Origin: Pseudomonadota bacterium
GTDB lineage: Bacteria > Desulfobacterota > WTBG01 > CAIYCZ01 > CAIRTM01
Assembly: GCA_024640785.1 (NCBI GenBank)
Contig: JAHEEI010000004.1
Location: forward strand, 1-40,105
Length of the DNA: 40,105 nucleotides
Direction of reading: 5' to 3'
This document shows, in pieces, positions 716-33,745 of this stretch (its first letter is position 1; each line of letters begins with the position of its first letter). The translations under genes were made by a program, and so were the position numbers. The notes beneath the pieces were generated by a model, which worked only from the letters and a program-made list of their open reading frames with translations, was not told the DNA's origin and ran no database searches.

Positions 716-2002
716 ATGATTGCTATTATCGGTGCGGGTCTAACAGGACTCAGCGTTGCCTACCATTTAAGTGACTTACCTTACTCAGTCTTTGATTCGG
801 AAAAAGAGATTGGTGGACTATGCCGTTCAGTAAATAAGGATGGATTTATCTTTGACTATACCGGCCATCTGCTCCACATGAAAGACCCTTATACGAGAAA
901 TTTCATTGAGTCTATTTTACCAAATGTCTTCATGGTAAAAACACGCAAAGCATCTGTGTTTTTAAAGGACCGTTACCTGCCTTATCCTTTTCAGGCCAAC
1001 CTTTACGGACTTCCGAAAAAAGTTGTTATTGAATGTCTTTTTGATTTTGTAAAAAAAAGAATAGGCAGTAGAAACAAAGACGATCTTAATTTTAAAGAAT
1101 GGGTGGTTGAAACATTTGGAAAAGGCATTTCAGAACAGTTTTTCATCCCTTATAATGAAAAGCTGTTTAGAACGAGCCTTGAAACTCTTACCAGCAACTG
1201 GGCCAGTTGGTCTGTTCCCCGTCCATCACTAACTGAAGTTTTAAGGGGCGCCATTGGAATAAAAAATATCAGGATGGGATATAATTCATCATTTTATTAC
1301 CCTTTAAAAAGCGGTATAGATGTGTTGCCCAAAGAATTAGAAAAAAGGGTCAAAGGTATCCAGCTGAATAAAAAACTGGTTTCAGTAGATCTTTTAAATA
1401 GATGTGTTGAATTTAATGACGGCACAAAGCAAAACTACAAATACCTTGTATCAACCCTACCTCTTCCAAACTTGCTTGAAACAATAGTAGAACTCCCCAA
1501 TTCTTTTAAAGATATCTCAAAAAATTTAAACTATGTGTCTGTTCAGAACTTAAATATTGGAATAAGTAGAAAAAATATAACAGGTTTTCACTGGATATAT
1601 TTTCCTGAGGGAAAATACCCTTTTTACAGGGTGGGGTGTTATTCAAACATATCTAACACTCTTGCTCCTGAAAACACAAGCTCGCTGTATATAGAGATAT
1701 CCTCACGTCCGGAAAAGAAAAAATCTATTGAGCAGATAACTGCTGAAACAATTGAAGGATTAAAGATGTGCGGCATTTTAAAAAAAACGGATAGTGTGAT
1801 TGAAAAAAATTATATTGAAATCGAACATGGGTATGTAATTTTTGATAAATTTCGCGAAAAGATCCTTCCGGACCTATTCAGTTATCTGGAAAAAAACAAT
1901 ATTTTTTCAATCGGACGTTATGGGAGCTGGACTTACTCTGCCATGGAAGATTCTATTTTAAAAGGAAAAGAAATCGCAGAAATATTAAAATGCAGAAAAT
2001 AA
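716..2002 (+). CDS. FAD-dependent oxidoreductase of the amine oxidase / protoporphyrinogen oxidase-like superfamily
   Basis: A 428-residue protein starting at an ATG with a good GGAGG site at 705-709. The N-terminus carries the dinucleotide-binding motif GAGLTG (residues 6-11), followed by a second FAD contact region (GGLCRSV at about 33-39) and FDYTGHLLHM (about 46-55), as in UDP-galactopyranose mutase and protoporphyrinogen-oxidase-like enzymes. The C-terminal part has the closing FAD motif, here IFSIGRYGSWTYSAMEDS. It lies 36 bp after the sugar-phosphate transferase and overlaps the next glycosyltransferase by 13 bp, so it is translationally coupled with polysaccharide genes. I infer a role in modifying or isomerising a nucleotide sugar or lipid-linked sugar; a role in haem synthesis is unlikely from context. 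The substrate is unknown. Confidence 0.8.
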   Translation: MIAIIGAGLTGLSVAYHLSDLPYSVFDSEKEIGGLCRSVNKDGFIFDYTGHLLHMKDPYTRNFIESILPNVFMVKTRKASVFLKDRYLPYPFQANLYGLPKKVVIECLFDFVKKRIGSRNKDDLNFKEWVVETFGKGISEQFFIPYNEKLFRTSLETLTSNWASWSVPRPSLTEVLRGAIGIKNIRMGYNSSFYYPLKSGIDVLPKELEKRVKGIQLNKKLVSVDLLNRCVEFNDGTKQNYKYLVSTLPLPNLLETIVELPNSFKDISKNLNYVSVQNLNIGISRKNITGFHWIYFPEGKYPFYRVGCYSNISNTLAPENTSSLYIEISSRPEKKKSIEQITAETIEGLKMCGILKKTDSVIEKNYIEIEHGYVIFDKFREKILPDLFSYLEKNNIFSIGRYGSWTYSAMEDSILKGKEIAEILKCRK

Positions 2003-3156
2003 TAGTTGTTCACATTATCACCAAAATGGAACTGGGCGGAGCACAACAGAACACGTTGTTTACCGTCTCAAATCTTGATCCTCGGAAACATGAAACTTTT
2101 CTCCTGGCTGGTCAAGAAGGAGAATTGATTGAAGAAGCAAAAAAGTTTAAAAATTTTTTTATCATCAAAGACCTAGTGCGTGAAATTAGGCCATTCAAGG
2201 ATGTAAAGGCTTTTCTTCAGATCGTAAAAATTCTAAAAAAAATTAAAAATAAATTTTCTAAACCTGTTCAAATTATTGTACATACCCACAGTTCAAAAGC
2301 CGGGATGCTTGGAAGATGGGCTGCAAAAGCAGCCGGTGTAAAAGTGATCATTCATTCGATTCACGGTTTTCCATTTAATGATTTTCAGCCCTTTTTAAAA
2401 AAATATATCTATATAGTCCTTGAAAAAATTACCGCTAAAATCACTTCTCATTTTATTCTGGTTTCATCTTCAAATATTGAAGAGGGGATAAAATACAGCA
2501 TTTTTAATCGTGAAAGAACAACTCTCATAAGAAGCGGCATTGAAATATCAAAATTTAAAAACCCGGAAACAGGAAAAGAGGAAACAAAAAATAATCTTGG
2601 AATTCCGATTGATTCACCTGTTGTGCTGATGGTTTCCTGCCTGAAACCCCAGAAAGCACCCCTTGACTTTGTAAAAACCTGCTTTATTGTTAAACAGGAG
2701 ATAAAAAATGTTTCTTTTTTACTTGCCGGCGATGGTATATTAAGGCAGGAGCTTGAAAACGAGATAAGAAAATATGGGTTGGAAGACTCTTTTCACTTTT
2801 TGGGATGGAGAAGGGATATTCCAAACCTTATAAATGCTTCAGAAGTTCTTGTCCTGACTTCTTTATGGGAGGGGCTTCCAAGGGTAATTCCACAGGCAAT
2901 GGCAGCATCTGTGCCTGTAGTTGTAACAAGAGTTAATGGCTCTCCTGAAGCTGTGAAAGAAGGTGAAAACGGTTTTCTTGTAACTCCGGGAGACATTATT
3001 GGAATAGCTGAAAAAACTGTTTTGCTTCTTAAAAATCCAGAAAAAGCAAAAAAAATGGGTCAAAAAGGGAGTTTTATGGTTCAAGAGTTTGATATTCATA
3101 AAATGGTAAATGATCAGGAAAGACTTTATGCTGAATTATTAAACTTTACAGGATAA
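1990..3156 (+). CDS. Glycosyltransferase family 4 protein
   Basis: A 388-residue GT-B fold retaining glycosyltransferase. The N-terminal domain begins with the GT4 pattern MELGGAQQNT (residues 13-22) and contains HTHSSKAGMLGR; the C-terminal domain has the nucleotide-sugar site with VSCLKPQKAP, LLAGDG, FLGWRRDI and the acidic motif WEGLPRVIPQAMA beginning at W293, with E294 the conserved donor-binding glutamate region. Its ATG lies inside the end of the FAD gene (13 bp overlap), indicating translational coupling. Known of the family: cytoplasmic or membrane-associated enzymes that add a sugar from an NDP donor to a growing glycan. I infer that it extends the lipid-linked sugar started by the transferase at the left edge. 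It is the last gene of this operon; about 100 bp separate it from the next gene, which has its own promoter. Confidence 0.9.
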   Translation: MQKIIVVHIITKMELGGAQQNTLFTVSNLDPRKHETFLLAGQEGELIEEAKKFKNFFIIKDLVREIRPFKDVKAFLQIVKILKKIKNKFSKPVQIIVHTHSSKAGMLGRWAAKAAGVKVIIHSIHGFPFNDFQPFLKKYIYIVLEKITAKITSHFILVSSSNIEEGIKYSIFNRERTTLIRSGIEISKFKNPETGKEETKNNLGIPIDSPVVLMVSCLKPQKAPLDFVKTCFIVKQEIKNVSFLLAGDGILRQELENEIRKYGLEDSFHFLGWRRDIPNLINASEVLVLTSLWEGLPRVIPQAMAASVPVVVTRVNGSPEAVKEGENGFLVTPGDIIGIAEKTVLLLKNPEKAKKMGQKGSFMVQEFDIHKMVNDQERLYAELLNFTG

Positions 3157-7455: not shown

Positions 7456-9177
7456 TCAAAAGTCGAAATCACTTTTTTTGGGTAAACCAAGTCCTTTGGT
7501 GGTCTGAAAAGCATATTCTTTCCTGCCTATTGCAACACAGACTTTTTTTCCATCTCCTTTTAAGCTAATTTGATCCTCAGGAAAACGATTTTTTAAAATA
7601 TTTATAAGGCAAATAGCTTTTTCAATACCATCCCCCCTGTTATAGTTCCAGACTTCATCCGGCTGCGCCAGTCTGGAACTATCGTAAATAGATTCGTTTT
7701 CCATCAGCCATAGTTTTTCGGCTAACCCCTCCTTATCAAGGTCTTTGCTGCCTTCTATGCTCACCGGGTTTCTTTCTATCGCAGCTTTTAAAAATGGTTT
7801 CCAGGGAGATTTTTCCAGGTCTCGGTAAGCACTAAAGGCAAGATCTGCCACCGAGTTTTTATCTCTCATTGATTCGAGATATTCTATAATTTCTTCGCGG
7901 TTTGATAGCTTGTCAAAAATAAGCGGTTCCTTTTCCACCCAGTGTTTTCGTGCATCTGGCAAATCCGGTTCAATCCTGCAGAATTTTTTAAGATCTGCTA
8001 TTACTTCTTCAACATTGTAGCAACAGCTTTTTAAATGTGCTTTCAGGTTCTCAATGTCACACGAAGAATCGAGAGATACACCCCCTTTTTTAAAGAAGGA
8101 CTCGATATCGTCAAGAAGAATCCTTCCCTGAATCGGGGAGGGATAAAATTCATCTTCATCAATTTCATGGAGAAGTTTTTCCTGGGTATTGTCTCCGATA
8201 CGAAGCTTGCTGCTGTGTTCATAATGAAACACTTTCTCAGACTCTATAAATCTGGGTTTTCCACAGCACTTGTGGGCAATTTGGAAACATTTTTGTATTT
8301 TGCTGTTATGCCTTAAAAAATTTGCCAGAATTTCAAAATTAATGTCCGTTGTAAGATATTGTCCAAGCTTTTTTGAGAGTTTACGGTAAGAGTCCGGTGA
8401 AATGGTAGCTTCTTTATACATGGTATGGATGTACCCGGTATTGTTGACCACAATGGTTACCTTTTCGTTTTGAAGGGCACGCCGGGTCTTGTCAGACATC
8501 TCTGTACCGTTAAACCACATGTTTTTAGTAACAATACGTCTGTTGTTCGTGATAATTCCGTCATTTATGTCAATAAAGTTCTGGGAATGAAGAGGGGTTG
8601 CAAGCATATACATACTGCTCAAGGGAATTTCTGCAATTACAAAAAGAAGGCTTGTATAAAGAGCTGCAAGAGATACGCACTCGCCGGCACCGGCAGGGTA
8701 ACCTTCCTTATACTTGAAAGCATCCATTGCTTCAGCTGTTTCCGTTTTCCAGTAGGGAATTATATCCGAGGTGTATTTGTCCAAGCCAAAGTGTCTCCTG
8801 ATATCAAGATCAAAGTAGTATTTGTCACCTTCATATCCGAAGAGAGCATTGCTTCTGGTCAGAATGTCCTCATCAACAAAGGAAGAAAAACGTTTCAGCT
8901 CTTTCTTTTTATTAGTAAGGCCCCAGGTGTCAAGGTCAAGGTTGAATGAAAAACAGTCCATGATAAATTGCTTGGTGCGCTGAAGCCTTCTATACGGACT
9001 TTTTTTCCCCAGGTCTTTGAACCAGGGATCTTTTTTCCACTGCCAGACAAGAGGAGACATAATATTTGCAAGCACAAGGGAAAACATGAGTTCCGGGAAA
9101 ATGAAGACTTCCATATCAGAAAGAGTCGCTGCCGAAGAATATTTTTCAACCGATTCAGTATCATCAGCACAATACAT
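7456..9177 (-). CDS. Uncharacterised protein with a transglutaminase-like Cys-His motif
   Basis: A 573-residue, mostly soluble protein. The N-terminal half contains GAGECVSLAALYTSLLFV (C167) followed 30 residues later by ATPLHSQNFIDIND (H197, D203), which has the Cys-then-His-then-Asp order of transglutaminase-like/papain-fold proteins; the helix after the cysteine is hydrophobic as in those folds. This is a tentative fold assignment, not a reaction. A hydrophobic stretch lies near residues 27-45, without a clear signal peptide. The rest of the sequence is highly charged and unfamiliar. The ATG at 9177 is the only good start. Its gene follows the DEAD-box helicase on the same strand with an 88-bp gap, so the two may be co-transcribed. 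Confidence 0.6.
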   Translation of the reverse strand: MYCADDTESVEKYSSAATLSDMEVFIFPELMFSLVLANIMSPLVWQWKKDPWFKDLGKKSPYRRLQRTKQFIMDCFSFNLDLDTWGLTNKKKELKRFSSFVDEDILTRSNALFGYEGDKYYFDLDIRRHFGLDKYTSDIIPYWKTETAEAMDAFKYKEGYPAGAGECVSLAALYTSLLFVIAEIPLSSMYMLATPLHSQNFIDINDGIITNNRRIVTKNMWFNGTEMSDKTRRALQNEKVTIVVNNTGYIHTMYKEATISPDSYRKLSKKLGQYLTTDINFEILANFLRHNSKIQKCFQIAHKCCGKPRFIESEKVFHYEHSSKLRIGDNTQEKLLHEIDEDEFYPSPIQGRILLDDIESFFKKGGVSLDSSCDIENLKAHLKSCCYNVEEVIADLKKFCRIEPDLPDARKHWVEKEPLIFDKLSNREEIIEYLESMRDKNSVADLAFSAYRDLEKSPWKPFLKAAIERNPVSIEGSKDLDKEGLAEKLWLMENESIYDSSRLAQPDEVWNYNRGDGIEKAICLINILKNRFPEDQISLKGDGKKVCVAIGRKEYAFQTTKGLGLPKKSDFDF

Positions 9178-9265: not shown

Positions 9266-10861
9266 TTATTGGCTGCTCCTGGTTTTTTTTGCATGGGAGA
9301 TAAGTGATTTTTGTCCCTTCTCTTTAAAGCTTATCACAATTTTCTCTGCTTTATCAAAAGGGACTGTTATAAAAGAAAAATTGTCCATTATCTGTATATC
9401 GTTGATTTCCCGATTCTTAATCTTGATTTTGCTCATAATAAGATCAACAAGTTTTTTAGGATTAAGCTTGTCTTTTTTACCAAGTGCGACAAAAAGTCTT
9501 GCCTTACCCTGTTGATCAAGCGGCCTCCCTTTTGCACCAACCTCTTTTATTTCACCATAGGCATCAGGGTTGAGCTCTTCTTCGAAACAATAGTTAAGGG
9601 TAGCAGCTAATATTTCTGTTGGATCACCTTCTCCAAGCAATTGCTTAGCCCAGTTATAGTAGTCGGTACTAATTTTATCTTCAAGAATGGCATTCAGGTC
9701 ATCGTATATCTTTTTCTTTTTGGCATTAATAATATCTTTTACTCTGGGTACGTTTGATTTCTTAATAGCCGTCTTTGCAAATCGCTGTATGAACATCAAC
9801 TGTTTGTATTCACTGGGGGTAATAAAGGTAATCGCGGTGCCCTGATGTCCGGCTCTTCCCGTACGGCCTATTCGATGAACATAAGACTCCGGATCTTGAG
9901 GCAGTGAATAGTTTATAACGTGGGTGAGATTATTAACATCAATCCCACGTGCGGCAACATCTGTTGCAACAAGGATATTGACTCTCTGTTTCCTGAAATT
10001 CCCCAAGGTTCTTTCTCTTTGAGCCTGTGAAATGTCTCCGTGAATTGCTTCCGCGTCATACCCTCTATCTATTAAATGATTTGCAACAGAATCGACATCC
10101 ATCTTTGTTCTGCAGAAAACCAGACCATAAAAATCATCTTCAATATCAATTATTCTGCACAACGCCTCAAACTTATCAGAAGCTTTTACCTCAAAATATA
10201 TTTGTTCTGTCAGGCTGGTGGTCAGCTGCTCTTTAACTTTAAGAAGTTCATAGCCATCCATATATTTACGGGCAAGATCTGTTATCCTCTTTGGCATTGT
10301 TGCGGAAAAAAGCAGGGTTCTTTTATCCGGATTTGTATGCTTCATTATTTCTTCCATATCTTCAATGAAACCCATATTAAGCATTTCGTCTGCCTCATCA
10401 AGTATCAGGTGCTCAATGTTTCCAATCTTTAATGTTTTTCTGTTAAGGTGGTCGATTACCCGGCCCGGAGTTCCGACAACAATATGAACGCCTTTTTTAA
10501 GTCTGCGTAACTGTTCGTCAATAGATTGTCCGCCATATATAGGAACTATTTTTATGTTTTTTATACCCTTTAGAGAATTGATTTCTTCTGATACCTGAAT
10601 CGCCAGCTCACGAGTAGGAGTCAGGATCAGGGCCTGAACCGTTTTTGAGTCAGTATTAATCATTTCTATCAAGGGCAGACCAAATGCAGCTGTTTTGCCT
10701 GTACCTGTTTGGGCCTGAGCAATTATATTCGTGTCATCTCTGAGCATCACAGGTATGGTCATAGCCTGAATTGCAGTTGGTTCTTCAAAACCCTTTTTAT
10801 TTATGGCGGCCAGAACTTTTTCTGAGAGTCCAAGGTCATTAAATGTCATTTTTTCAACCAT
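9266..10861 (-). CDS. deaD: DEAD-box ATP-dependent RNA helicase (DeaD/CsdA type)
   Basis: A 531-residue RNA helicase with all core motifs in order: Q motif region (FNDLGLSEK ... TAIQ, residues 7-32), Walker A AQTGTGKT (50-57), PTRELA (82-87), TPGR (131-134), DEAD (155-158), SAT (186-188), ARGID (304-308) and HRIGRTGR (329-336). Residues about 455-520 form a DbpA-type RNA-binding domain, which is typical of DeaD/CsdA and DbpA proteins that act in ribosome assembly and in cold conditions. The start at 10861 (MVEK) has an AAGAG-like site; a second ATG four codons in is an alternative. A 302-bp region separates it from the divergent U32 gene, long enough for a regulated leader, as is common for cold-induced helicases (inference). 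Confidence 0.93.
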   Translation of the reverse strand: MVEKMTFNDLGLSEKVLAAINKKGFEEPTAIQAMTIPVMLRDDTNIIAQAQTGTGKTAAFGLPLIEMINTDSKTVQALILTPTRELAIQVSEEINSLKGIKNIKIVPIYGGQSIDEQLRRLKKGVHIVVGTPGRVIDHLNRKTLKIGNIEHLILDEADEMLNMGFIEDMEEIMKHTNPDKRTLLFSATMPKRITDLARKYMDGYELLKVKEQLTTSLTEQIYFEVKASDKFEALCRIIDIEDDFYGLVFCRTKMDVDSVANHLIDRGYDAEAIHGDISQAQRERTLGNFRKQRVNILVATDVAARGIDVNNLTHVINYSLPQDPESYVHRIGRTGRAGHQGTAITFITPSEYKQLMFIQRFAKTAIKKSNVPRVKDIINAKKKKIYDDLNAILEDKISTDYYNWAKQLLGEGDPTEILAATLNYCFEEELNPDAYGEIKEVGAKGRPLDQQGKARLFVALGKKDKLNPKKLVDLIMSKIKIKNREINDIQIMDNFSFITVPFDKAEKIVISFKEKGQKSLISHAKKTRSSQ

Positions 10862-11163
10862 TTTTTCTCTTTTCTTAATTGTTTTAAGTTAATAAAAGCA
10901 TACGCTTTTTTACTGTAAAAAGACATTAAAACATCTTCAAAAAAGAATAAAGTCTAATGCCAGGAAATACATATATAACACATCTAACCGGTCTATCCCT
11001 GCCAATTTTTAATAAACAGGCCTGTACGCTGTTTTATACTGAAAAACAATTGTTGCGGCAAATATCATGACTTTGGTATCCTTTTATTATAGTAGATAGC
11101 TTTAAGTGCTGCTATGATAAAATACAAAAAAGAACTAACCTGGCAAAAAGGAAGGCTTTATCA
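10862..11163. other. Intergenic region between divergent deaD and U32 genes
   Basis: About 300 bp, AT-rich, no gene found. It must hold the promoters of both flanking genes; a TATGAT-like -10 element lies near 11113 for the rightward gene without an obvious -35. No strong hairpin or known riboswitch was recognised. Confidence 0.5.
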
Positions 11164-12447
11164 ATGGCAAAGATTATATGTGGCAAAAAGCCCGAAATAA
11201 TGTCCCCCGCAGGAAACTGGATTAGCCTGCGGACTGCTCTTGATGCGGGCTGCGACGCAGTATATTTTGGTATAAAAGGCATTAATATGCGTGCCGGCGC
11301 AGACAACTTTTTAATATCGGAAATGAAAAGAGTTGCCGATCTGTGCCATAAAAAAAGCGTCAAAGCATATCTTGCCCTTAATACGGTTATCCATGAAAAA
11401 GATATTCCAAAGACCATAAAGATAATTGATAAGGCAAAACAGGCGGGTGTTGATGCAGTTATCTGCTGGGATTTCTCAATCATAACAGCGTCATTAAGTA
11501 AAAAGATTTCGGTATATCTGTCCACCCAGATGTCGATATTAAACTCGAGCAGCATCCTTCATTTTTATAACAGTTTTGGAATAAAAAGGTTTGTCCTAGC
11601 TAGAGAATGTTCTTTGAAAGAAATTATGAATGTCAGAAAAAACCTGAAAGCAGTTCTTGGCAAAAAAGCGGAGCAAATAGAAATAGAAGTCTTTATCCAC
11701 GGAGCCATGTGCGTTTCTATTAGTGGCAGATGCTTTCTGTCTCAGTTTCAGTTCAATAAATCAGCCAATACCGGCGAATGTATTCAGCCCTGTAGGAGAG
11801 AATATCTTGTGACAGACCTTGAAGAAAAACGCAGTTTTTCTGTGGGCAGCAACTATATAGTAAGTCCGAAAGATCTGTGCACACTCCCATTTATTGAAAA
11901 GCTGATAGAAGCAGGGATAGAGAGTTTTAAGATAGAAGGAAGAAACAGAAGTCCTGAATATGTAGGCATTGTAACTTCAGCCTACCGAAAGGCAGTTGAC
12001 TTTTATTTTGAAAACAGAAAAAACCCGGGTTTTAAAAAAGAGTTTGAAAAGCTGAAAAAGGAGCTTTTAAAAGAAGTCGAAAAAGTATATAATCGAGGCT
12101 TTTCTTCGGGGTTCTTTCTTGGAAAACCGATTAATGAATGGACTGAAAAACACGGTAACATTGCCACCACAAGAAAAGAGTATTCAGGCTATGTAATAAA
12201 ATACTATAAAAAGGCAGGGGTGGCAGAGGTTAAAATCGAAAGCAATGGATTTAAAAAAGGTGATGAAATAATGTTTCAGGGCACAACAACTGGTAGTTTT
12301 TCTCAAAAAGCCGGTTCAATGGAGATAGAACATGTGCAGATCCGTTGTGCTGAAAAAGGAGCTATCCTTGCGGTTAAAACAGATAGGCCTGTTCGGACAA
12401 AAGACAAGCTGTATGTTATCAAAAATATAAAGCAGGGTTCTCTTTAG
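11164..12447 (+). CDS. Peptidase U32 family protein, TrhP (YegQ)-like tRNA hydroxylation factor
   Basis: A 427-residue U32-family protein. Seen: the N-terminal signature KPEIMSPAGNWISLRTALDA (residues 9-28), GCDAVYFGIKGINMRA, VYLSTQMS, and the diagnostic central block IHGAMCVSISGRCFLS through NTGECIQPCRREY. Cysteines C183, C190, C206 and C239 have spacings close to those of the [4Fe-4S] cluster ligands of UbiU-type U32 proteins; C210 is extra. Known of the family: despite the protease name, members take part in prephenate-dependent, oxygen-independent hydroxylation of RNA (TrhP at tRNA U34, RlhA on 23S rRNA) or ubiquinone (UbiU/V). Length and C-terminal beta-barrel domain fit TrhP better than the 330-residue UbiU or 650-residue RlhA. 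It overlaps the convergent methyltransferase by 4 bp. Confidence 0.85.
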   Translation: MAKIICGKKPEIMSPAGNWISLRTALDAGCDAVYFGIKGINMRAGADNFLISEMKRVADLCHKKSVKAYLALNTVIHEKDIPKTIKIIDKAKQAGVDAVICWDFSIITASLSKKISVYLSTQMSILNSSSILHFYNSFGIKRFVLARECSLKEIMNVRKNLKAVLGKKAEQIEIEVFIHGAMCVSISGRCFLSQFQFNKSANTGECIQPCRREYLVTDLEEKRSFSVGSNYIVSPKDLCTLPFIEKLIEAGIESFKIEGRNRSPEYVGIVTSAYRKAVDFYFENRKNPGFKKEFEKLKKELLKEVEKVYNRGFSSGFFLGKPINEWTEKHGNIATTRKEYSGYVIKYYKKAGVAEVKIESNGFKKGDEIMFQGTTTGSFSQKAGSMEIEHVQIRCAEKGAILAVKTDRPVRTKDKLYVIKNIKQGSL

Positions 12448-13214
12448 GCCGGCACATTAAATCCCAGTTCCCTTCTCACAGCTTTGTACTCTTCTGTAAA
12501 ACTCTGGTCTTCATTTCTGACTGAAAGTGTTTCAATTTCATTAAGTCCTTTTTTTTTCTTTAAAAATCTGAAAAGAGAAATAAGCGGAGGTTTTGTCTTT
12601 CTTGGAATCACGTCTACTCTTAAATCACAGCAAAAAGAATAGTTTTTTGCTGCATCAAAAACTCTTTCAGCATACTGGAAAGGATAAACCGTGGTAAAAA
12701 AACCGCCTTCTTCAACGTGATGTGAGGCAGACTTGAAGTAATCAAAAATAGTTCCATTCAGTTCAAACCTTACCCCTGCCTTGTCACTGTTAGAGCTGAC
12801 AGGGCCTTCATCTTTTCTGTAATATGGAGGAGAGGATGTCACGATTTTGAACTTTTCATCAAGAAATTTATTTCTGATATCAGCATGGAGGAGTTTGAAA
12901 CGGCATGAAAGACCATTTACTTCAAGAGACTTTTTCCCAAGCATAAATCTGCTATGGTTGATTTCAATACCATAGCCTTCTGCTTCAGGAAAAGCCCACA
13001 GAAATATCATTGGGACAGAGCAGAGACCCGACCCGAGATCAAGAAACCTGTTTGGCGAAGGTAAAATATTTTTTGCACTCTTAACTGCAAGCCAAGCAAC
13101 GAGCATATCGTCTGTGGAATAGCGCTGACCCTTTTCATGTTGGTATATTATAAAATTACCGGATAGAGTATCAATTCTTGCACCCGTAATAGATCTTTGT
13201 TTCTCAGCCAACAA
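12444..13214 (-). CDS. TrmN6-like N6-adenine methyltransferase
   Basis: A 256-residue SAM-dependent methyltransferase. Seen: DTLSGNFIIYQHEKGQRYSTDD (positions 15-36, the family's N-terminal block, read here as two adjoining parts), motif I FLDLGSGLCSVP (57-68), an acidic GIEIN loop (82-86) and motif IV at SSPPY (127-131). The last replaces the usual NPPY asparagine with serine; related proteins from this bacterial group often have a Ser or Thr here, so it need not be inactive. E. coli TrmN6 methylates A37 of tRNA-Val; the target here is inferred. The start is a TTG codon at 13214, supported by an AAAGGAG site about 7 bases upstream. A hairpin (13242-13271) separates it from the upstream CheX gene, so it probably has its own promoter or depends on readthrough. 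Confidence 0.8.
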   Translation of the reverse strand: MLAEKQRSITGARIDTLSGNFIIYQHEKGQRYSTDDMLVAWLAVKSAKNILPSPNRFLDLGSGLCSVPMIFLWAFPEAEGYGIEINHSRFMLGKKSLEVNGLSCRFKLLHADIRNKFLDEKFKIVTSSPPYYRKDEGPVSSNSDKAGVRFELNGTIFDYFKSASHHVEEGGFFTTVYPFQYAERVFDAAKNYSFCCDLRVDVIPRKTKPPLISLFRFLKKKKGLNEIETLSVRNEDQSFTEEYKAVRRELGFNVPA

Positions 13215-13241
13215 AAAACTCCTTTTACGATAAAGAATAAA

Positions 13242-13271
13242 GCTCCGGATCGCTTAATTGTGATACGGAGC
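13242..13271 (-). terminator. Hairpin, likely terminator after cheX on the minus strand
   Basis: GCTCCG at 13242-13247 pairs with CGGAGC at 13266-13271, with further partial pairing inside (ATC/GAT). On the minus strand it is followed by a T-rich stretch (TTTATTCTTT). It ends about 28 bases before the methyltransferase start and 120 bases after the cheX stop. Confidence 0.5.
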
Positions 13272-13390
13272 CCTTAAAACATATTATTCATGAGTTTTTT
13301 AATCATAATAATGTGTTGCTTTTGAGGGAAGAAATCATCTGATTGTCTGTTTATTAGGGTTTTATTCCAAGGTCTAAAAATATATGTTTT

Positions 13391-13870
13391 TTAGCCGGAC
13401 AAACCTTCAAGACAAATACCCAGCTCAAAAAATCCCTTTTCTAATTCAAATTTCACCATAGTCATGTTTTTGCCTTTTGGCCTGTTTAACTTAAGATCTT
13501 TTCCTGAAATAATAGTTGGCAGGCCTGCCCCGAGTTTAGTGCCCAGTAATGATATTCTTTTTCTTGCCTGACCTGAGATCATGTTTGCTATTTCACCCAC
13601 GGCCTCTCTAACCTAAGCATTCATGGTCTCAAATTTTTCACAAAACATGGTTGAAACTATCTGTATAATACTTGATTTTGTAAAGCCGATGGTCATAAAG
13701 CCCTTTATGTTTTCATCCCTATTTGAAAAACCTATTATTCCCAACACTTCTGCCACACTTTTTTGCTTGTCCCAGATACAGGTCTCATTAACAACCGGCT
13801 TAACAAAAGCCATGGTTTCCAGGACCTTAATGGTTGCATCAACAAAAGGGGTTACATGCTCATTTTCCAT
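13391..13870 (-). pseudogene. CheX-family chemotaxis phosphatase gene with one in-frame amber (TAG) codon
   Basis: Read as one frame, the gene encodes about 159 residues, the usual CheX length. The first 85 codons (from the ATG at 13870) end at a TAG at 13613-13615, directly after ETMNA; the frame then continues without shift as VREAVGEIANMISGQARKR. That block holds the CheX/CheC catalytic pattern with Glu and Asn (GEIANM), so the stop falls just before the active-site helix. A Glu codon (GAG) is expected at this position and differs from TAG by one base. CheX proteins dephosphorylate CheY-P. Possible explanations are a recent nonsense mutation, a sequencing error, or amber readthrough. The C-terminal part has its own ATG (13600) but would lack half the fold. 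Confidence 0.75.
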
Positions 13871-14080
13871 TTGAAAATCCTATTATTTTTTAAAATTAAA
13901 TATTTATGCAAAAAATATGTTCTGGGAAAATATATTTATGTCAAAGCCCATAGCAGTATTTATTATTTATCATCAATGCTAAGCCAGCATATTTTAAATT
14001 TTAAAGGCATAGCCATCGATTGCTTCACAAGAAAAGTATCAAAACAAGGTGTTTAATCCAGTGTCACAAAAAGGTTTCTC

Positions 14081-15202
14081 TTATGTGGCCAATTCTTCTT
14101 TCTCAGGTTCAATAATCTGCCTGTAATATGCCAACAGCAAACATGTCATCGGAAGGGCAATAATAACACCAAAAACACCCAGAAGTTTTCCCCAGACAGA
14201 CACAGAAAGCAGAATGATTGCTGGAGAAAGTCCGGTAACTTTGCCCATAATTCTTGGAGTTAAAATATAATCCTGTATTATTTGAACAATTGCAAAAACC
14301 AGCAGGGTAAGGCCAGCAGTCGTCATGAGTCCTGTTCCTGTTTCAATCGTTTGTAAAACAGCCAGCAAACAGGCGGGGATGATTGCCGCAATCTGAAGGT
14401 AGGGGACCATATTTAAAAGACCTATGAAAAGCCCGAAGAAAATGGCCATGGGTAGCCCCGTAATTATAAAACCAATAGAAAAAAGAAAACCTACCAAAAC
14501 AGCGATCAGAGCCTGAGCTCGAAAATATCTGCTCATTCCCATATTAAAATCATCAACAAAATTTTCTATGTCTGAATGCCATTTTGAAGGAACAAGGGTC
14601 TTCCACCCTTTTTTGACATTCTGATAATCCATTAGTAGAAAAACCAGATATAGAAAAATAACAAAAAACCCCATCAAGGCTAAAAAAAAGTTTGCAGCTC
14701 CCTGAAACATCTTCCATAGGCCCGGCAGGATCTTTTTTACTGTAGCCTGGATAATAAGCCATACATCTTTTCGGCCTAGCATATCACCTACACGGTCCAT
14801 TTCCTCACCCCGGACCATTGACCTTACACTTTCCCATAGGTCGGGAGGGACATATTCGAGAGCTCTTTTTGATAATTCCTGATCTTCTGCAACACGCACA
14901 ATCAGTTTTGATACATGAAAGACCTCTTTTTTAATCAAGGGCACAGTTACAAAACCGGCCAGAAAAAGAAGACCTGAAACCATAATCAATGCTACAAATA
15001 CAGCCGCAGCCCGATGTTTGATTTTTTTCTGGACCAGGTTTACCAGTGGATTTAAAAGATATGCTAGAAGAAAAGCCGTTGCAAAGGGAATCAGCACATC
15101 AGAGAGATATTTCATCAGCCAGAGAACAGCAGCAAAAAAAAGGGCTGTAATAAAAATACGGAATACTCTGTCAAAAGTATAAGGCTTGCTGGATGAGGGC
15201 AT
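14081..15202 (-). CDS. AI-2E family transporter (PerM/YdiK-like permease)
   Basis: A 373-residue integral membrane protein with about eight hydrophobic helices in the family arrangement: two at the N-terminus (residues about 12-50, including VLIPFATAFLLAYLLNPLV), one near 65-90, a long soluble segment (about 95-155), then helices around 155-195 and a cluster from 225 to 360. The conserved GLLNMVPYLQ and LTPRIMGKVTGLSP segments are present. An AGGAG site precedes the ATG at 15202. Family members are exporters or antiporters; one was linked to autoinducer-2 export and others to sodium/proton exchange, so the substrate here is open. It is separated from cheX by about 210 bp and diverges from the next gene. 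Confidence 0.9.
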   Translation of the reverse strand: MPSSSKPYTFDRVFRIFITALFFAAVLWLMKYLSDVLIPFATAFLLAYLLNPLVNLVQKKIKHRAAAVFVALIMVSGLLFLAGFVTVPLIKKEVFHVSKLIVRVAEDQELSKRALEYVPPDLWESVRSMVRGEEMDRVGDMLGRKDVWLIIQATVKKILPGLWKMFQGAANFFLALMGFFVIFLYLVFLLMDYQNVKKGWKTLVPSKWHSDIENFVDDFNMGMSRYFRAQALIAVLVGFLFSIGFIITGLPMAIFFGLFIGLLNMVPYLQIAAIIPACLLAVLQTIETGTGLMTTAGLTLLVFAIVQIIQDYILTPRIMGKVTGLSPAIILLSVSVWGKLLGVFGVIIALPMTCLLLAYYRQIIEPEKEELAT

Positions 15203-15435
15203 GAAATCTCCTGACTAAAGATTAATGCGTTTTAAAATACAGGCCTCGTCAACCTCTGTACTATGGAAATATAAAATGAAAAAGACACCGTGTCAATGCA
15301 AAACGGATTTTGTTTCAACACGGCTCACAGCTGAAGCTCAGAGTTTAAAGATATTTACTTTCCGTAACCACCAATCTGTGTTACATACAAAATAAGAAGC
15401 AACAATCATTGTTTCCTCTTTTAAAGGCTGGACAT

Positions 15436-16104
15436 ATGCCTAAAGAAGCAAACACAAATTTGCCCAGCGAACCATCAAAAACAACTCTGAAGTATATCAG
15501 AGCAACAGGTCATTTTCTTCTTGTTGCCACGCTTTCGTTGTTTATCATTCTTGGAATCAAAGAAGGTTCTCCATATGATAATGTCTGGAAGCTTGTGCTG
15601 GCACATTTTGTCAGCGGTCGGGCAGGAAACGTTGGGGTCGGTCTGATGCAGGGGTTTAACCACTACTTTCTCCTCTACGAGTGCTGCATGATCGATTTTA
15701 TCATCATTTTTTATGTTTATCCATGGTTTGTTTCGGGATACCAGCATCTTTCTGACTGGCCCATTATCGGTCCGGGGCTGAAACATACTCATGAAATTGC
15801 CCTGGAGCATAAAAAGAGAATTGCGCCGTATGGCGCAATAGGTCTGATGGTTTTTGTAATATTTCCATTCTGGAGTACAGGGCCGCTTGTTGGAGTAATG
15901 GTGGGATATCTCCTAGGTATGAGCACAAGACTGACTTTTACAACAGTTATTATAGGTGACGCAATTGCAGTAGCTGCGTGGATCTGGGCTCATGATAAAC
16001 TTTACAATCACAACCGTCAATTTACCATTATACTTCTCATCATTATTTTTGCTCTCGCAATTGGAGGAGCAATATATGCGAAGATCAGAAAAAGAAAGAA
16101 TTAG
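15436..16104 (+). CDS. Small multidrug export family (PF06695-like) membrane protein
   Basis: A 222-residue membrane protein from the ATG at 15436, chosen because AAAGG lies 8 bases upstream; a TTG at 15409 in the same frame would add nine residues but has a poorer site. Hydrophobic helices lie at about residues 26-42, 75-95, 130-160 and 195-213. The segment YGAIGLMVFVIFPFWSTGP followed by LVGVMVGYLLGM matches the conserved core of the putative small multi-drug export family. No transport activity has been shown for most members, so the name is only a label. The gene converges with the aldehyde oxidoreductase gene with a 9-bp gap and is probably monocistronic. Confidence 0.75.
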   Translation: MPKEANTNLPSEPSKTTLKYIRATGHFLLVATLSLFIILGIKEGSPYDNVWKLVLAHFVSGRAGNVGVGLMQGFNHYFLLYECCMIDFIIIFYVYPWFVSGYQHLSDWPIIGPGLKHTHEIALEHKKRIAPYGAIGLMVFVIFPFWSTGPLVGVMVGYLLGMSTRLTFTTVIIGDAIAVAAWIWAHDKLYNHNRQFTIILLIIIFALAIGGAIYAKIRKRKN

Positions 16105-16113
16105 CCAAATATT

Positions 16114-18270
16114 CTAGTTTACTCTTTTTCTTGCTGTGCTTACAATTTCAAGGTTTTCTGCATGGTCAAGACTAAGTCTTTTTAAGGTTTCATCATGAGG
16201 AATCCCGTGCCAGTCATATCCCTTTTCATCATATACTTCATCCGCCAGTCTCTCATATTCTTTTCGGCGATAAACCTGAAGCAGTTCAAGTCTTTCTTTA
16301 TCGCTTTTTGAACTAATGTCAAGGCCCGCAACATCAGTGAGGTACTTTTCATAATATGGCTTTCTGGATTCATACTCGTTCATAAATACCGGGGCCATAG
16401 CGCGAAGCGGGAGCATATCATGTTCTCTGGTACCAAACCCCTGGCGAAGGTTAATAAGTTTATGAAGGAGATAACACCTTTCCGATTCTGTAAGCAGATC
16501 ATCAAGAGATTTATTAGTTCCCAGCGTAGCATTAACAAGTTCCAGATAGTAATCTATTGTGGGAAGATTCTTTGATGGATCATCCGTGTGTTTTGCTTCC
16601 GGGTGACGAACATCAATCCATGGAAGCTTACACAGCCCCACAACATTAAACCATGTTCTGATTAGAGGGAACCATTTCAGGGCCATTGCTTTTTTCTTAA
16701 AAGTAGGAAGTTCTTTATTTAGCTGGTCGATTGCTATCAGCCATGCCTCATCATGCTGCGGTCCTTTAAGGGCAAAACCGTACCCTCCCTGCTGAGCAAG
16801 AGATTCTTTAGATATATACATGGAAAACTCCAAGCCTTTTGTTTCCATGGCAAACAGAGAAAGTTCCTCCATGATATCTTTATAAGGTCTGCCGTTTCGG
16901 GTCGAAGCTTTTTTTGCGATCCAGTCTTTCATATAGCGTACACCTTTTCCAGCTGAAAGGGCAAAATCTCCCTTGCCTGCTGCCATGCGGTGGAGCAGTT
17001 CCATAACACTTTCTGCATTGTCCCAGGTGAGTTCCAGTCCTTCTGTATCTTCCTTTGTAAGAAGCCCTCTTTCATAAGCTTCAAAGAGAAAAGACTGTAC
17101 CACTCCAGTGCTTATGGTATCAATACCGTATTCATCACAGTAAAAGTTGTATTCAAAAATGTATTCGATATCAAAGATACCAAGATTTGTAATATTGGCT
17201 GCTGATTCATATTCGGGACCGTCAACCGCGACAGTACGGCCTGCAAAAGGTCCTGTTAAAAGCCTGTGTTCATCATATCCTTTTGTGCAGGCAAGATTGC
17301 ACCCTGCAAAGCATCCATCAGGATGGCCCTGTTTAAAATATTTTTTCTCAAAAATTGAACCGGAAACTTTATGGGCTCTTTCGTCGCAACCATATTGATA
17401 ATTATTTACCGGAAGCAGGTGAAAAGAGTTCATCATGTCAATTAAGGCGGTTGTTCCCTGAGTGCAGAGGCTCATGGCTTTGGGATCGACTTCATTTATT
17501 ACATTTCTTAAACTTTTGCCGGCATTTCTGACGCGTTCACGGTCCGCAGGTTTATTTGCATTACTTTTTGATTGGTCACGTTTGGCAACAATACCCCAAA
17601 GACCTTTTTCACGCATTACAGACCCTGTGCCGCCTCTTCCCGCCTGTTTTGAACGACATCTTTTCCTTCTCACATCATAATAAACACTGTTTATACATCC
17701 AAGTTGTGTGTTTTTAGCGCCTATTCCTGCGCATACAAACGCAACATTTGACAACTTACCGACACCGTTCCACTGTTCAACAAACCTATCGGCTTCAAGG
17801 AGGGTATTTTGGGTCGCAGGTGCCTTTTTTATACTTACCTCACAGGTGTTGCCGTCAATAACAATAACAACTTCCTCATCTGACTTTCCCACAACTGAAA
17901 TTGCATCAAATCCGGAAAGTTTTACCAAAGGGAAAAAGTGACCGCCAACGTTCGAATCACAAAAAGTATTGGTGAGCGGTGAAATTGTTCCTACTATAAA
18001 CTTGCCTGAGCCTGCAAAACCGGTCTCACCGCAAAAGGGTCCCCCGGCAAAAGCAAGCACATTTTCAGGACTGTCAAATTTTGTGTCTTTATCTGTTCCG
18101 TCATATACCAGCTTTAGGCAATATCCTCTGCCACCCACAAACTGCTTTTGCATTTCTTCAGGAACATCTTTTACAGTGATTTTCTTTTCAGTCAAATCTA
18201 TTTCAAGGATCTGGTTTGTATAACCCTTTTCAATCGCATTTCTATTATATTTCAATGAAGGATAACCCAT
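16114..18270 (-). CDS. Aldehyde:ferredoxin oxidoreductase family protein (long, about 720 residues)
   Basis: A 718-residue tungsten/molybdo-bispterin enzyme of the AOR family. The N-terminal domain has ILEIDLTEKKITVKDVPEE and FVGGRGYCLKLVYD (about residues 23-56), typical of AOR domain 1. The Fe-S ligands are visible as GCFAGCNLACTKG with C320, C324 and C328, spaced CxxxCxxxC, and a fourth cysteine C547 in VVGLCKLPW. DGPEYES and YCDEYGIDTIS (pterin-binding region) are intact. Classical AOR is about 605 residues with CxxCxxxC spacing; the longer form with wider spacing resembles an uncharacterised group common in sulfate reducers. Function is inferred as ferredoxin-linked oxidation of an aldehyde or reduction of an acid. 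It starts at an ATG behind GGAG and diverges from moaC, which makes its cofactor. Confidence 0.88.
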   Translation of the reverse strand: MGYPSLKYNRNAIEKGYTNQILEIDLTEKKITVKDVPEEMQKQFVGGRGYCLKLVYDGTDKDTKFDSPENVLAFAGGPFCGETGFAGSGKFIVGTISPLTNTFCDSNVGGHFFPLVKLSGFDAISVVGKSDEEVVIVIDGNTCEVSIKKAPATQNTLLEADRFVEQWNGVGKLSNVAFVCAGIGAKNTQLGCINSVYYDVRRKRCRSKQAGRGGTGSVMREKGLWGIVAKRDQSKSNANKPADRERVRNAGKSLRNVINEVDPKAMSLCTQGTTALIDMMNSFHLLPVNNYQYGCDERAHKVSGSIFEKKYFKQGHPDGCFAGCNLACTKGYDEHRLLTGPFAGRTVAVDGPEYESAANITNLGIFDIEYIFEYNFYCDEYGIDTISTGVVQSFLFEAYERGLLTKEDTEGLELTWDNAESVMELLHRMAAGKGDFALSAGKGVRYMKDWIAKKASTRNGRPYKDIMEELSLFAMETKGLEFSMYISKESLAQQGGYGFALKGPQHDEAWLIAIDQLNKELPTFKKKAMALKWFPLIRTWFNVVGLCKLPWIDVRHPEAKHTDDPSKNLPTIDYYLELVNATLGTNKSLDDLLTESERCYLLHKLINLRQGFGTREHDMLPLRAMAPVFMNEYESRKPYYEKYLTDVAGLDISSKSDKERLELLQVYRRKEYERLADEVYDEKGYDWHGIPHDETLKRLSLDHAENLEIVSTARKRVN

Positions 18271-31173: not shown

Positions 31174-31899
31174 ATGATGCCAGAAAAATTCACGTTTCCC
31201 TCCTATGAAGACAGGATGATGGAAATTCTCAACAAGTTCGGTCTGAAAAAAATGGAAACCTACAAGGGAAAAGATATAACAAAGCTCTGGGACATGAAGG
31301 GCGGGGGGCTTGTCTGGAGCTATAAGTATCTTTATACAGCGCCTAAGATTGAAAAGATTATTTTCAGTGTGCAATCCTTTCGAGACAAACTAATGTGCTA
31401 TACAACAAGTGTCTGGCCTGAAGATGACTATGCATTTCCAATCTATTCCTCTTTCTGGGCTGAAAGCGCAAAGGGAAGCTATATGCTTATAGACCTGTAT
31501 CCGCAGGCAGACTGTATTGTTGATTTGCCGTATATGGAACGTTATCTGGACCCTCTGGAGGATGCGTACGATAAGGGGCTTAAGAACTTTTCTGAAAGAG
31601 GAACCCGTGATCCCAACTGGTGGCGTGCTTTTTCATCGCCTTATGCACTGACTGCTGATTTTGGTCCAAGCACAAAGGAGACCCAGGAGAACATCTTAAG
31701 CCTTGCAACCGACTACCTTAAAATTTATTATGATCTCTGGGAAAAAGATGAACCCGCTGATGCCGTATATTTGGAACGACTGCATGAACGTAAGCAGGCG
31801 ATTCGTCAGAATCTGAAAGACAAAGATCCTGGCGGCCTCATGCTGGAAAATTCCGTGGGTCATGAGTTGACGGAACTGACGCTGGAGGTACTTTTTTAG
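31174..31899 (+). CDS. Ferredoxin-dependent bilin reductase-like protein (divergent)
   Basis: A 241-residue soluble protein starting at ATGATG behind AAAGGAG. By memory of the family (PcyA, HY2, PebA/B), the plan matches: a central strand pair with AFPIYSSFW (87-95) and SYMLIDLYPQ (102-111), the aromatic AFSSPYAL (152-159), and a C-terminal KDPGGLMLEN (217-226), a conserved G229 and a VLF end. In PcyA the substrate pocket uses Glu76, His88 and Asp105; in an ungapped comparison these positions are S65, T77 and F94 here, so the usual proton donors seem absent. The family reduces bilins with ferredoxin electrons. In a non-phototroph, the substrate is unknown; an ancestral or side-branch activity on a linear or macrocyclic tetrapyrrole is conceivable. 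It is followed by a broken TIGR04076-type gene, DUF3795 and an Fe-S flavoprotein. Confidence 0.55.
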   Translation: MMPEKFTFPSYEDRMMEILNKFGLKKMETYKGKDITKLWDMKGGGLVWSYKYLYTAPKIEKIIFSVQSFRDKLMCYTTSVWPEDDYAFPIYSSFWAESAKGSYMLIDLYPQADCIVDLPYMERYLDPLEDAYDKGLKNFSERGTRDPNWWRAFSSPYALTADFGPSTKETQENILSLATDYLKIYYDLWEKDEPADAVYLERLHERKQAIRQNLKDKDPGGLMLENSVGHELTELTLEVLF

Positions 31900-32002
31900 G
31901 AAGGAGTATTACTGTTAATCTGAATTAATAAGTTGACTGACTGAAAGTTTTGTAATAATGGCTGATTAGGAGCTAATTGAAGATTTTTGAAATGATAAAA
32001 AC

Positions 32003-32624
32003 ATGAACGATGATGATGTTGTTTCCCGAATAATGGCTGTTGTTAACCGCTATTATCAGGAGGCAACCATCACAGAAGTTTCATGCAGCTGTCCCTAGGT
32101 CACTGTAAAGAAAACAGGTTCAAGGTTACCAGCATGAACAGTGACGGCTTGTGCGGAGGAATGTACCAGGCTGTCCACAGCCAGATCGTTATCTGTCACC
32201 ATGACGGAGAAATACAATGGGGAAAAGAGCCCGGTTCGCATAGTGGGATATGCCCGGAAGGTGTGGTACATCTTGATGTTAAGCGGAAGGCAAAAGAGAA
32301 CAGGTCTTTTTTCAGGACAGGGACAAAGATTGTTGAAATGACCAGCAAGGGATTTTCGGGTATTGACAATTTCAGGATATACCTTGAAGTAATAAGTATT
32401 GCTAATAATTGTGTCTGGGGACACCGGGAAGGCGAAAGGCTGGAGCTTGATGTTTTCAATGTGGGGACCTGCTTCGGTTTTATGTATCGTGGGATTTATC
32501 ATTATATGACCCTACTTCTTTCAGGGGTGGGCTTGTCTGGGAGGGTGTCAGCAACATTGTGCAGGGCTGCTGTCCGGACCCGTTTAACCAGCTTACTTAT
32601 TGTCTGGTAAGAGAAGAGAGATAA
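32003..32624 (+). pseudogene. Tandem TIGR04076-type gene broken by two frameshifts
   Basis: Three frames together encode one protein of about 205 residues with two copies of a TIGR04076-like domain. Part one (ATG 32003 to about 32095) ends ITEVSCSCP; the next part continues in another frame with LGHCKENRFKVTSMNSDGLC, restored by adding one C to the CCC at 32093-32095. The middle frame runs through the first domain (CGGMYQAV ... DGEIQWGKEP ... GICPEGVVHLDVKR) and the second (NNCVWGHREGERLELD ... TCFGFMYRGIYHYMTLL). Near 32515-32521 the frame changes once more, giving FRGGLVWEGVSNIVQGCCPD and PFNQLTYCLVREER to the TAA at 32622-32624. Both lesions equal loss of one base. TIGR04076 proteins are Cys-containing and uncharacterised. 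It may be a true pseudogene or carry two sequencing errors in short homopolymers. Confidence 0.65.
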
Positions 32625-32676: not shown

Positions 32677-32771
32677 TGGGTAAAATAGAGGTTAAAATAT
32701 TTATTGTTTTTTAATCTTTCCGTAACATAATTTTTGCTTCTTGGTTTTTTAATTATTTAATGGAGGATGCT

Positions 32772-33107
32772 ATGGGAAAAATGACTTCACGCTGTGGCCT
32801 TGTGTGTACAGCCTGTCCAGCCTATATTGCCACGAAGGAAGATGATGATAAAAAAAGGGCGGAAGTGGCCGAATTGTGGTCAGAACAGTTTAGCATGGAG
32901 ATTAAGTCTGAAGATGTGAACTGTGTCGGTTGTCTTGCCGAGGGTGTGCACAGCAGCTATTGCGGGATGTGTGAAATAAGGAAATGTGCGATTGAAAAAG
33001 GGCTTGAGAGCTGTGGGTTATGTGATGATTATGCCTGTGAAAAACTTGAACCCGTACTTTCTATGGAGCCTTCCTGCAGAGAGAATCTGGAGAATATTAG
33101 AGATTAA
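32772..33107 (+). CDS. DUF3795 Cys-rich protein
   Basis: A 111-residue protein from the ATG at 32772, chosen because GGAGG at 32762-32766 lies just upstream; an ATG at 32760 overlaps that site and would add four residues. It has about a dozen cysteines in clusters: SRCGLVCTACPAYIA near the N-terminus, NCVGCLAEG, CGMCEIRKCA and CGLCDDYACE. This pattern is that of DUF3795, suspected to bind metal or Fe-S clusters; no function is established. It is 32 bp upstream of an Fe-S flavoprotein gene and is probably co-transcribed with it, so it may act as its redox partner or share a stimulus (inference). Confidence 0.82.
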   Translation: MGKMTSRCGLVCTACPAYIATKEDDDKKRAEVAELWSEQFSMEIKSEDVNCVGCLAEGVHSSYCGMCEIRKCAIEKGLESCGLCDDYACEKLEPVLSMEPSCRENLENIRD

Positions 33108-33139: not shown

Positions 33140-33745
33140 ATGAAAATAATGGCATTTGTGGGGAGTCCGAGAAAGAATTCAAACGTTGATACTTTGATGG
33201 ACAAAGTTATAGAAGGAGTAAAAAGCAAAACTGATGTGGAAGTGGAAAAGATATATCTTTATAGCGCAGATATTAAAAACTGTAATGGCTGCGGTCTCTG
33301 TTCTCCCCTTATGGGAAACAGGGATTGTCCGATAGATGATGATATGCCTGGAATTTTAAATCGAATGATTGAGGCAGAGGCCTATGTCTTCGGCACTCCG
33401 AATCATGTACATACCATGTCCTCTGCAATGACAAATTTCTGGGCACGGCTTCAGCCCCTTGGAAAAATGGAAGTAATAAGAGATGACTCTGGAAAAATTA
33501 TTGGCGGGAAATCAAAACCGCTTATAATGGGTAAGAAGGCTGTTATGGTGGTAAGTCAGGGTGATTTTTCTCCTTCTGCCTCTGCGCTTCTTCTCAGGGT
33601 GCTTGACTCAAATATAAAAGATTTTCAATTAAAGAAGATCGGTGAGGTTTTTAGCACCGGAAACCTTGAAAAAGCACAGGTGAAAAATAATGAGAATGAC
33701 CTAAACCTTGCTTTTACCTTCGGACAGCGTTTGGCTGGAGGATAA
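33140..33745 (+). CDS. Iron-sulfur flavoprotein / NADPH-dependent FMN reductase family
   Basis: A 201-residue flavodoxin-fold protein. Seen: the FMN-phosphate loop GSPRKNSN (residues 8-15), then C48, C51, C54 and C63 in CNGCGLCSPLMGNRDC, the compact cysteine motif of Isf-type proteins that binds a [4Fe-4S] cluster near the flavin (spacing before the last cysteine is slightly long at 8), and the flavin-contact segment GTPNHVHTMSSAMTNFWAR (about 85-103). Known family members carry electrons from ferredoxin and reduce oxygen, peroxide or other acceptors in anaerobes. It follows the DUF3795 gene and ends at a terminator. A link to the bilin-reductase-like protein is possible but separated by a terminator. 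Confidence 0.85.
   Translation: MKIMAFVGSPRKNSNVDTLMDKVIEGVKSKTDVEVEKIYLYSADIKNCNGCGLCSPLMGNRDCPIDDDMPGILNRMIEAEAYVFGTPNHVHTMSSAMTNFWARLQPLGKMEVIRDDSGKIIGGKSKPLIMGKKAVMVVSQGDFSPSASALLLRVLDSNIKDFQLKKIGEVFSTGNLEKAQVKNNENDLNLAFTFGQRLAGG

Follow-up and report, generated by a model that had tools for sequence, protein, structure and literature searches.

The closest described relatives of the protein reported here are the ferredoxin-dependent bilin reductases (FDBRs), with which plants and cyanobacteria produce the bile pigments of light sensing, and the red chlorophyll catabolite reductases (RCCRs). According to Rockwell et al., all known enzymes of the FDBR fold are ultimately oxygen-dependent, and FDBRs were inferred to postdate oxygenic photosynthesis (PMC10151467). 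PEBB and PebS have a second catalytic Asp, D219 of GtPEBB, which is positioned by R215; HY2 has an Asn at the position of PcyA D105, and its Asp-116 is reported as a substitute (PMC6755814). Among the pre-PcyA enzymes, which belong to the same superfamily, pre-1 is found in non-photosynthetic bacteria and lacks the three PcyA residues E76, H88 and D105. The pre-1 and pre-3 clusters typically contain a haem oxygenase, an Fe-S protein, two V4R proteins and a bilin-binding globin, and the main text of that study mentions neither a ferredoxin fusion nor flavodoxin (Rockwell 2023, PMC10151467). The same study reports sequences from Candidatus Schekmanbacteria, outside oxygenic phototrophs, that either lie intermediate between the FDBR and RCCR families or belong to the outgroup; the passages concerned give neither copy number nor gene context. 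In the anaerobic degrader Castellaniella defragrans the AmeABCD transporter is linked to the metabolism of monoterpenes, and the passages on it mention no FDBR (PMC6394551). A literature search, itself incomplete, returned no bilin reductase linked to Desulfobacterota or to a ferredoxin-domain fusion; an earlier description may exist.

The window (the whole stretch of 40,105 nucleotides analysed) carries an FDBR-like gene with an ATG start and a good AGGAG-like ribosome-binding site upstream (Table 1). Its product matches PF05996 over residues 42-235 with 49.9 bits (E 4.3e-13, Pfam cut-off 31), and phmmer against the PDB retrieves GtPEBB (1.1e-8) and HY2 (3.3e-4). A family profile built from 35 members of the class to which this genome belongs matches PEBB (2e-32), HY2 (1.5e-27), PebA (8e-20), PcyA (5e-20) and, much more weakly, RCCR (3e-6). 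The same alignment was used for AlphaFold2, which gave a model with a pLDDT of 94.1 and a pTM of 0.91. The model has the alpha/beta/alpha sandwich, with TM scores of 0.70-0.85 to PEBB, HY2, PcyA and RCCR, and the top Foldseek matches are 6qx6 (TMq 0.82), 6kme (0.85), 2d1e (0.75) and the RCCR 2zxk (0.75). A search of a viral structure library returned only phage FDBR relatives. Profile and predicted fold both assign the protein to the FDBR/RCCR superfamily, as the sequence-only reading had proposed; neither of the outcomes that would have refuted that reading, the lack of a significant PF05996 match and a different fold, occurred. GtPEBB and HY2 (6qx6 and 6kme) are its nearest relatives both in sequence and in fold, and RCCR has the same fold with a far weaker sequence match.

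Table 1. Coordinates of features in the window and of related loci in other contigs of the class
Sequence	Positions	Strand	Feature	Basis and remarks
Window	716-1999		PF01593 amine-oxidase-family flavoprotein	
Window	16114-18270	-	Aldehyde:ferredoxin oxidoreductase	
Window	31174-31899	+	Predicted FDBR/RCCR-fold protein (PF05996), 241 aa	Pfam, AlphaFold2, Foldseek, residues, orthologues in 13 class genomes
Window	31980-32610	+	Cys-containing protein similar to TIGR04076, split between reading frames	23 bits, below cut-off 33
Window	32760-33107	+	DUF3795 Cys-rich protein	PF12675, 67.2 bits; not a conserved neighbour, link to FDBR-like gene uncertain
Window	33140-33745	+	FMN_red / iron-sulphur-flavoprotein-like, possible redox partner	PF03358, 63.1 bits
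L031 (G000:C171, own genome)	1700-2368		FDBR-like copy	Several in-frame stops, likely frameshift or pseudogene
L078 (G003:C122)	10772-15675		Nitrogenase-like set	Adjoins NmrA-FDBR pair; one genome only
L095	8624-9973		Relative of the PF01593 protein	
L106	11155-12486		Relative of the PF01593 protein	

In an alignment with the PDB sequences, E76, H88 and D105 of PcyA correspond to S65, T77 and F94 of the window protein, exactly the Ser, Thr and Phe that had been noticed from the sequence. The central catalytic Asp (PcyA D105, GtPEBB D99) is absent, as is a substitute of the HY2 type: in HY2 the H88 column is occupied by an Asp, which we take to be Asp-116, and the window protein has T77 there. 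With F94 and T77, the acid of the known A-ring mechanism is therefore gone from both positions. As the D105 acid was tested for in this alignment and is absent, we do not class the protein as a bilin reductase. The Asp at PcyA D220 and GtPEBB D219 is kept as D218, and is invariant among 14 aligned orthologues; GtPEBB R215, in contrast, is replaced by L214, a position that is hydrophobic across the whole group of orthologues (the window group). Every orthologue has Phe or Tyr at D105, and Y30, D34, K51, E97, K100, D107 and R145 are invariant among them. Across the class, 46 of 81 proteins have Asp or Glu at D105 and 39 combine this acid with Asp at D220; several groups, the window group among them, lack the combination.

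FDBR/RCCR-fold proteins have undergone a lineage-specific expansion in one class of presumably anaerobic deltaproteobacterial genomes, and the window protein represents one of the resulting orthologous groups. In its own genome 14 genes match PF05996, of which one is interrupted by in-frame stops, and 13 of 17 sampled class genomes carry 6 to 17 each, 145 in total (E<=1e-3). In a sample of the phylum (217 genomes at least 85% complete) matches at E<=1e-8 were found in 7 genomes, all of this class, and one peptide-pattern scan of genome contigs beyond the phylum with the window protein gave two class members only. Two of the class genomes with window-group orthologues are public Deltaproteobacteria MAGs: GLR311, and K_DeepCast_150m_m1_356 from a depth of 150 m in Lake Tanganyika. 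About a dozen orthologous groups are well supported in the tree, and since each of them has members in several genomes, the duplications are old. The window group has full support and is present in all 13 FDBR-bearing genomes; its best match in each genome is 49-61% identical, and a second copy in the window's own genome is 63% identical. The FDBR-like genes of the class are as diverse as the characterised FDBRs of the comparison set. An early branching of the window protein had been suggested from the sequence; in the tree the known FDBRs fall among the class groups, and the deep nodes are weakly supported.

The distribution of genes around the FDBR-like loci was analysed. In six genomes an NmrA-type dehydrogenase gene lies 25-104 bp upstream of the window-group orthologue on the same strand, and in some genomes the orthologue also has DUF1302 and DUF1329 genes, an Old Yellow Enzyme (OYE) and a flavin-reductase-like protein nearby. 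The NmrA partner belongs to PF13460, a family that includes biliverdin IXbeta reductase and ChuY, and its best PDB matches are generic. An intact TIGR04076-like copy (67.9 bits) is found 3' of the orthologue in genome G002 and a related ORF 3' of that in G004. The window itself has no NmrA or transporter genes. The nearby Fe-S proteins (DUF3795 and FMN_red), proposed from the sequence as possible partners, are not conserved neighbours of the orthologues; FMN_red does recur near FDBR-like genes in four genomes. Across paralogues a set of DUF1302, DUF1329, YCF48-like and HAE3-type RND genes recurs, and these are the same four families as in the hydrophobe transporter AmeABCD. Of 81 DUF1329 genes, 17 lie within 12 kb of an FDBR-like gene, where chance would give no more than 6 (p about 7e-5; the test treats orthologous loci as independent, which they are not). 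Co-occurrence of DUF1329 was dropped as evidence and co-location alone retained, as DUF1329 also occurs in FDBR-less genomes. This, together with the great abundance of AOR, SDR and FAD enzymes in the class genomes, makes some of the neighbourhood signals weak. Aldehyde:ferredoxin oxidoreductases are hugely expanded, with 21 AFOR_N genes in the 2.8-Mb genome of the window (one copy is in the window) and 7-24 in its relatives; with up to 24 copies per genome they were set aside as specific neighbours. The nitrogenase-like set of L078 has two members resembling NifH and two resembling NifDK/BchNB, none of which reaches its curated cut-off; as it occurs beside the orthologue of one genome only, it was set aside as evidence.

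Electron supply is best documented outside the window group. One group carries a 2[4Fe-4S] ferredoxin domain fused before the FDBR domain, with Fer4 and Fe_bilin_red both over the Pfam cut-offs. These fusions comprise 10 genes in 8 genomes, with two complete [4Fe-4S] motifs and all 8 Cys invariant, and the D105/D220 pair is kept in all six copies checked one by one. The fused protein of genome G008 is encoded at L106, positions 8049-9032. The AlphaFold2 model of a fusion has a good reductase domain that matches FDBR structures; its ferredoxin part has a pLDDT below 45, from an alignment of 10 sequences only, and the docking of the domains is unreadable. In two other groups tandem FDBR pairs adjoin a separate small 2[4Fe-4S] ferredoxin. 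A membrane-anchored group present in seven genomes follows a geranylgeranyl-reductase-like (GGR-like) flavoprotein, with a flavodoxin in most cases and often a divergent AmeABCD-type set. Fusions and ferredoxin or flavodoxin neighbours are the best evidence that the expanded family probably resembles FDBRs in receiving low-potential electrons directly. The use of ferredoxin electrons, suggested by the sequence-only reading, is therefore probable for the family; for the window protein, whose sister group alone has the fused domain, ferredoxin would be the donor by analogy. At five loci (L034, L087, L103, L119 and L122) flavodoxin-domain proteins of about 360-390 aa precede the membrane-anchored FDBR-like protein. 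Their N-termini resemble export signals, which suggests that the inner membrane, or the space outside it, may be the site of this reduction.

We then considered the pathways in which bilins are made or used. No match over the cut-off to haem oxygenase (PF01126) was found in the 13 FDBR-bearing genomes, and for the anaerobic haem-opening enzyme HutW/ChuW (TIGR04107) there were HemN-like matches only, far below the cut-off. Phytochrome (PF00360) and phycobiliprotein or bilin-binding globin (PF00502) had no match over the cut-off in the class genomes. COX1, the haem-copper oxidase, is absent from all 13 FDBR-bearing genomes, which is consistent with the presumed anaerobic host. In contrast with GtPEBB, the window protein occurs in a genome with no recognised bilin pathway, and in contrast with the pre-PcyA clusters, the class genomes have no PF00502 or PF01126 over the cut-off and the neighbours differ. 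The OYE neighbours of the orthologues score best to bilirubin reductase (NF045599), at 384 bits against a cut-off of 750, and carry HGHEGY instead of HGDR, the motif of bilirubin reductase BilR (PMC10769871); on both grounds their identity as bilirubin reductase was rejected. Taken indirectly, the lack of PF01126 and TIGR04107 matches over the cut-offs would speak against biliverdin or another bilin as substrate. The idea of a relative acting on another tetrapyrrole, put forward from the sequence, gains no support: the bilin-making and bilin-using families searched for (haem oxygenase, HutW/ChuW, phytochrome and phycobiliprotein) gave no match over the cut-off in the class, the OYEs lack HGDR, and the recurrent neighbours point to hydrophobic compounds.

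Our preferred reading, for which we see nearly as much reason to accept as to doubt, is that the family has been retargeted, and consists of low-potential ferredoxin- or flavodoxin-dependent reductases of hydrophobic unsaturated compounds other than biliverdin. The expanded family would have moved from bilin metabolism to cofactor-free radical reduction at low potential. Its substrates may be terpenoid-, steroid- or aromatic-like, and its electrons would come straight from ferredoxin (fused, encoded adjacently or in trans) or from flavodoxin. The window protein would hold its substrate in the open alpha/beta/alpha pocket, where ferredoxin electrons would reduce it, with D218, and perhaps the group-invariant E97 too, as proton donor in place of the lost D105; the NmrA-type NAD(P)H dehydrogenase would act before or after it. 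Family membership, predicted fold, residues, expansion, fusion and gene neighbourhoods are what the analysis shows; the activity, the electron donor of the window copy, the proton donors and the class of substrate are what we infer here. Hydrophobic-compound metabolism is favoured because recurrent neighbours, such as the AmeABCD-type set, point there; the NmrA family with BVR-B/ChuY, the GGR-like enzyme and the nitrogenase-like genes could be read as tetrapyrrole-related. Further points count against retargeting: the window has neither the NmrA gene nor the transporter genes, its copy of the conserved downstream neighbour is broken, and the principal catalytic acid is gone from the window group.

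The tetrapyrrole side of this evidence can be put as an explanation of its own, in which the family degrades or remodels external tetrapyrroles that reach anoxic water from above (phycobilins, haem or chlorophyll breakdown products), and FDBR-like proteins, the BVR-B/ChuY-like NmrA dehydrogenase and the OYE reduce bilins stepwise. Open tetrapyrroles are, as far as known, the only substrates of this fold and pocket family, nearly half of the class proteins keep both acids, at least one relative was sampled in a stratified lake, and both the family of the NmrA partner and the best, if sub-threshold, score of the OYEs are in line with it. We nevertheless regard it as unlikely: the genomes have none of the haem oxygenase, over-cut-off HutW, phytochrome or phycobiliprotein genes, the OYEs differ from BilR in their motif, the NmrA protein has generic best matches, and both acids serving A-ring reduction are gone in the window group. 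The Phe or Tyr that every orthologue has at D105 also suits a non-catalytic partner or binding pseudo-enzyme that would hold a hydrophobic substrate for an FDBR-like paralogue or for the NmrA dehydrogenase. The position of window-group genes directly 3' of the NmrA gene agrees with such a role, and tandem FDBR-like pairs in which one partner has no acids (R/F, N/D and A/D types) are frequent. The window gene, however, is outside any tandem pair, and a protein relieved of catalysis would have to account for the invariance of D218 and the polar residues listed above; this explanation is less probable again. Very improbable, finally, is an ordinary, recently acquired bilin reductase or pre-PcyA serving bilin chromophore synthesis. 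It would explain the PF05996 match, and pre-1 enzymes without the three residues do have weak activity (PMC10151467), but the class has no haem oxygenase, PF00502 globin or phytochrome, the orthologues are vertical across the class, and D105 is lost.

Extended to the whole class, retargeting becomes a larger proposal, which we hold with more doubt than belief: that in strict anaerobes the FDBR fold gave rise to a large family of flavin-free ene-reductases, driven by ferredoxin and acting on hydrophobic substrates other than tetrapyrroles, with the self-contained fusion of ferredoxin and reductase among its members. If so, FDBR-type chemistry would be bound neither to bilins nor to oxygen. The loss of key residues, the 14 gene copies and the lack of a known bilin-making route in the genome suggest that anaerobic life has put the FDBR fold to use in other reductions. 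The conclusion of Rockwell et al. would be directly contradicted by a class whose genomes have no recognisable haem oxygenase or haem-copper oxidase and carry as many as 17 FDBR-like genes each, and these genes would form a large pool of uncharacterised ferredoxin-driven reductases. The fusion offers a single-gene system for testing electron transfer, and the intact Asp pair of the fused group against the single loss in the window group makes a clean comparison.

Two further observations concern genes at these loci. A protein of about 140 aa is encoded 3' of tandem-pair FDBR-like genes at L033, L093, L094, L098, L099, L116, L117 and L118; the one copy tested had no Pfam or NCBIfam match, and by eye it resembles sterol-carrier SCP2 domains. 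The PF01593 flavoprotein of the window has relatives at L095 and L106, near the ferredoxin-fused FDBR in two genomes.
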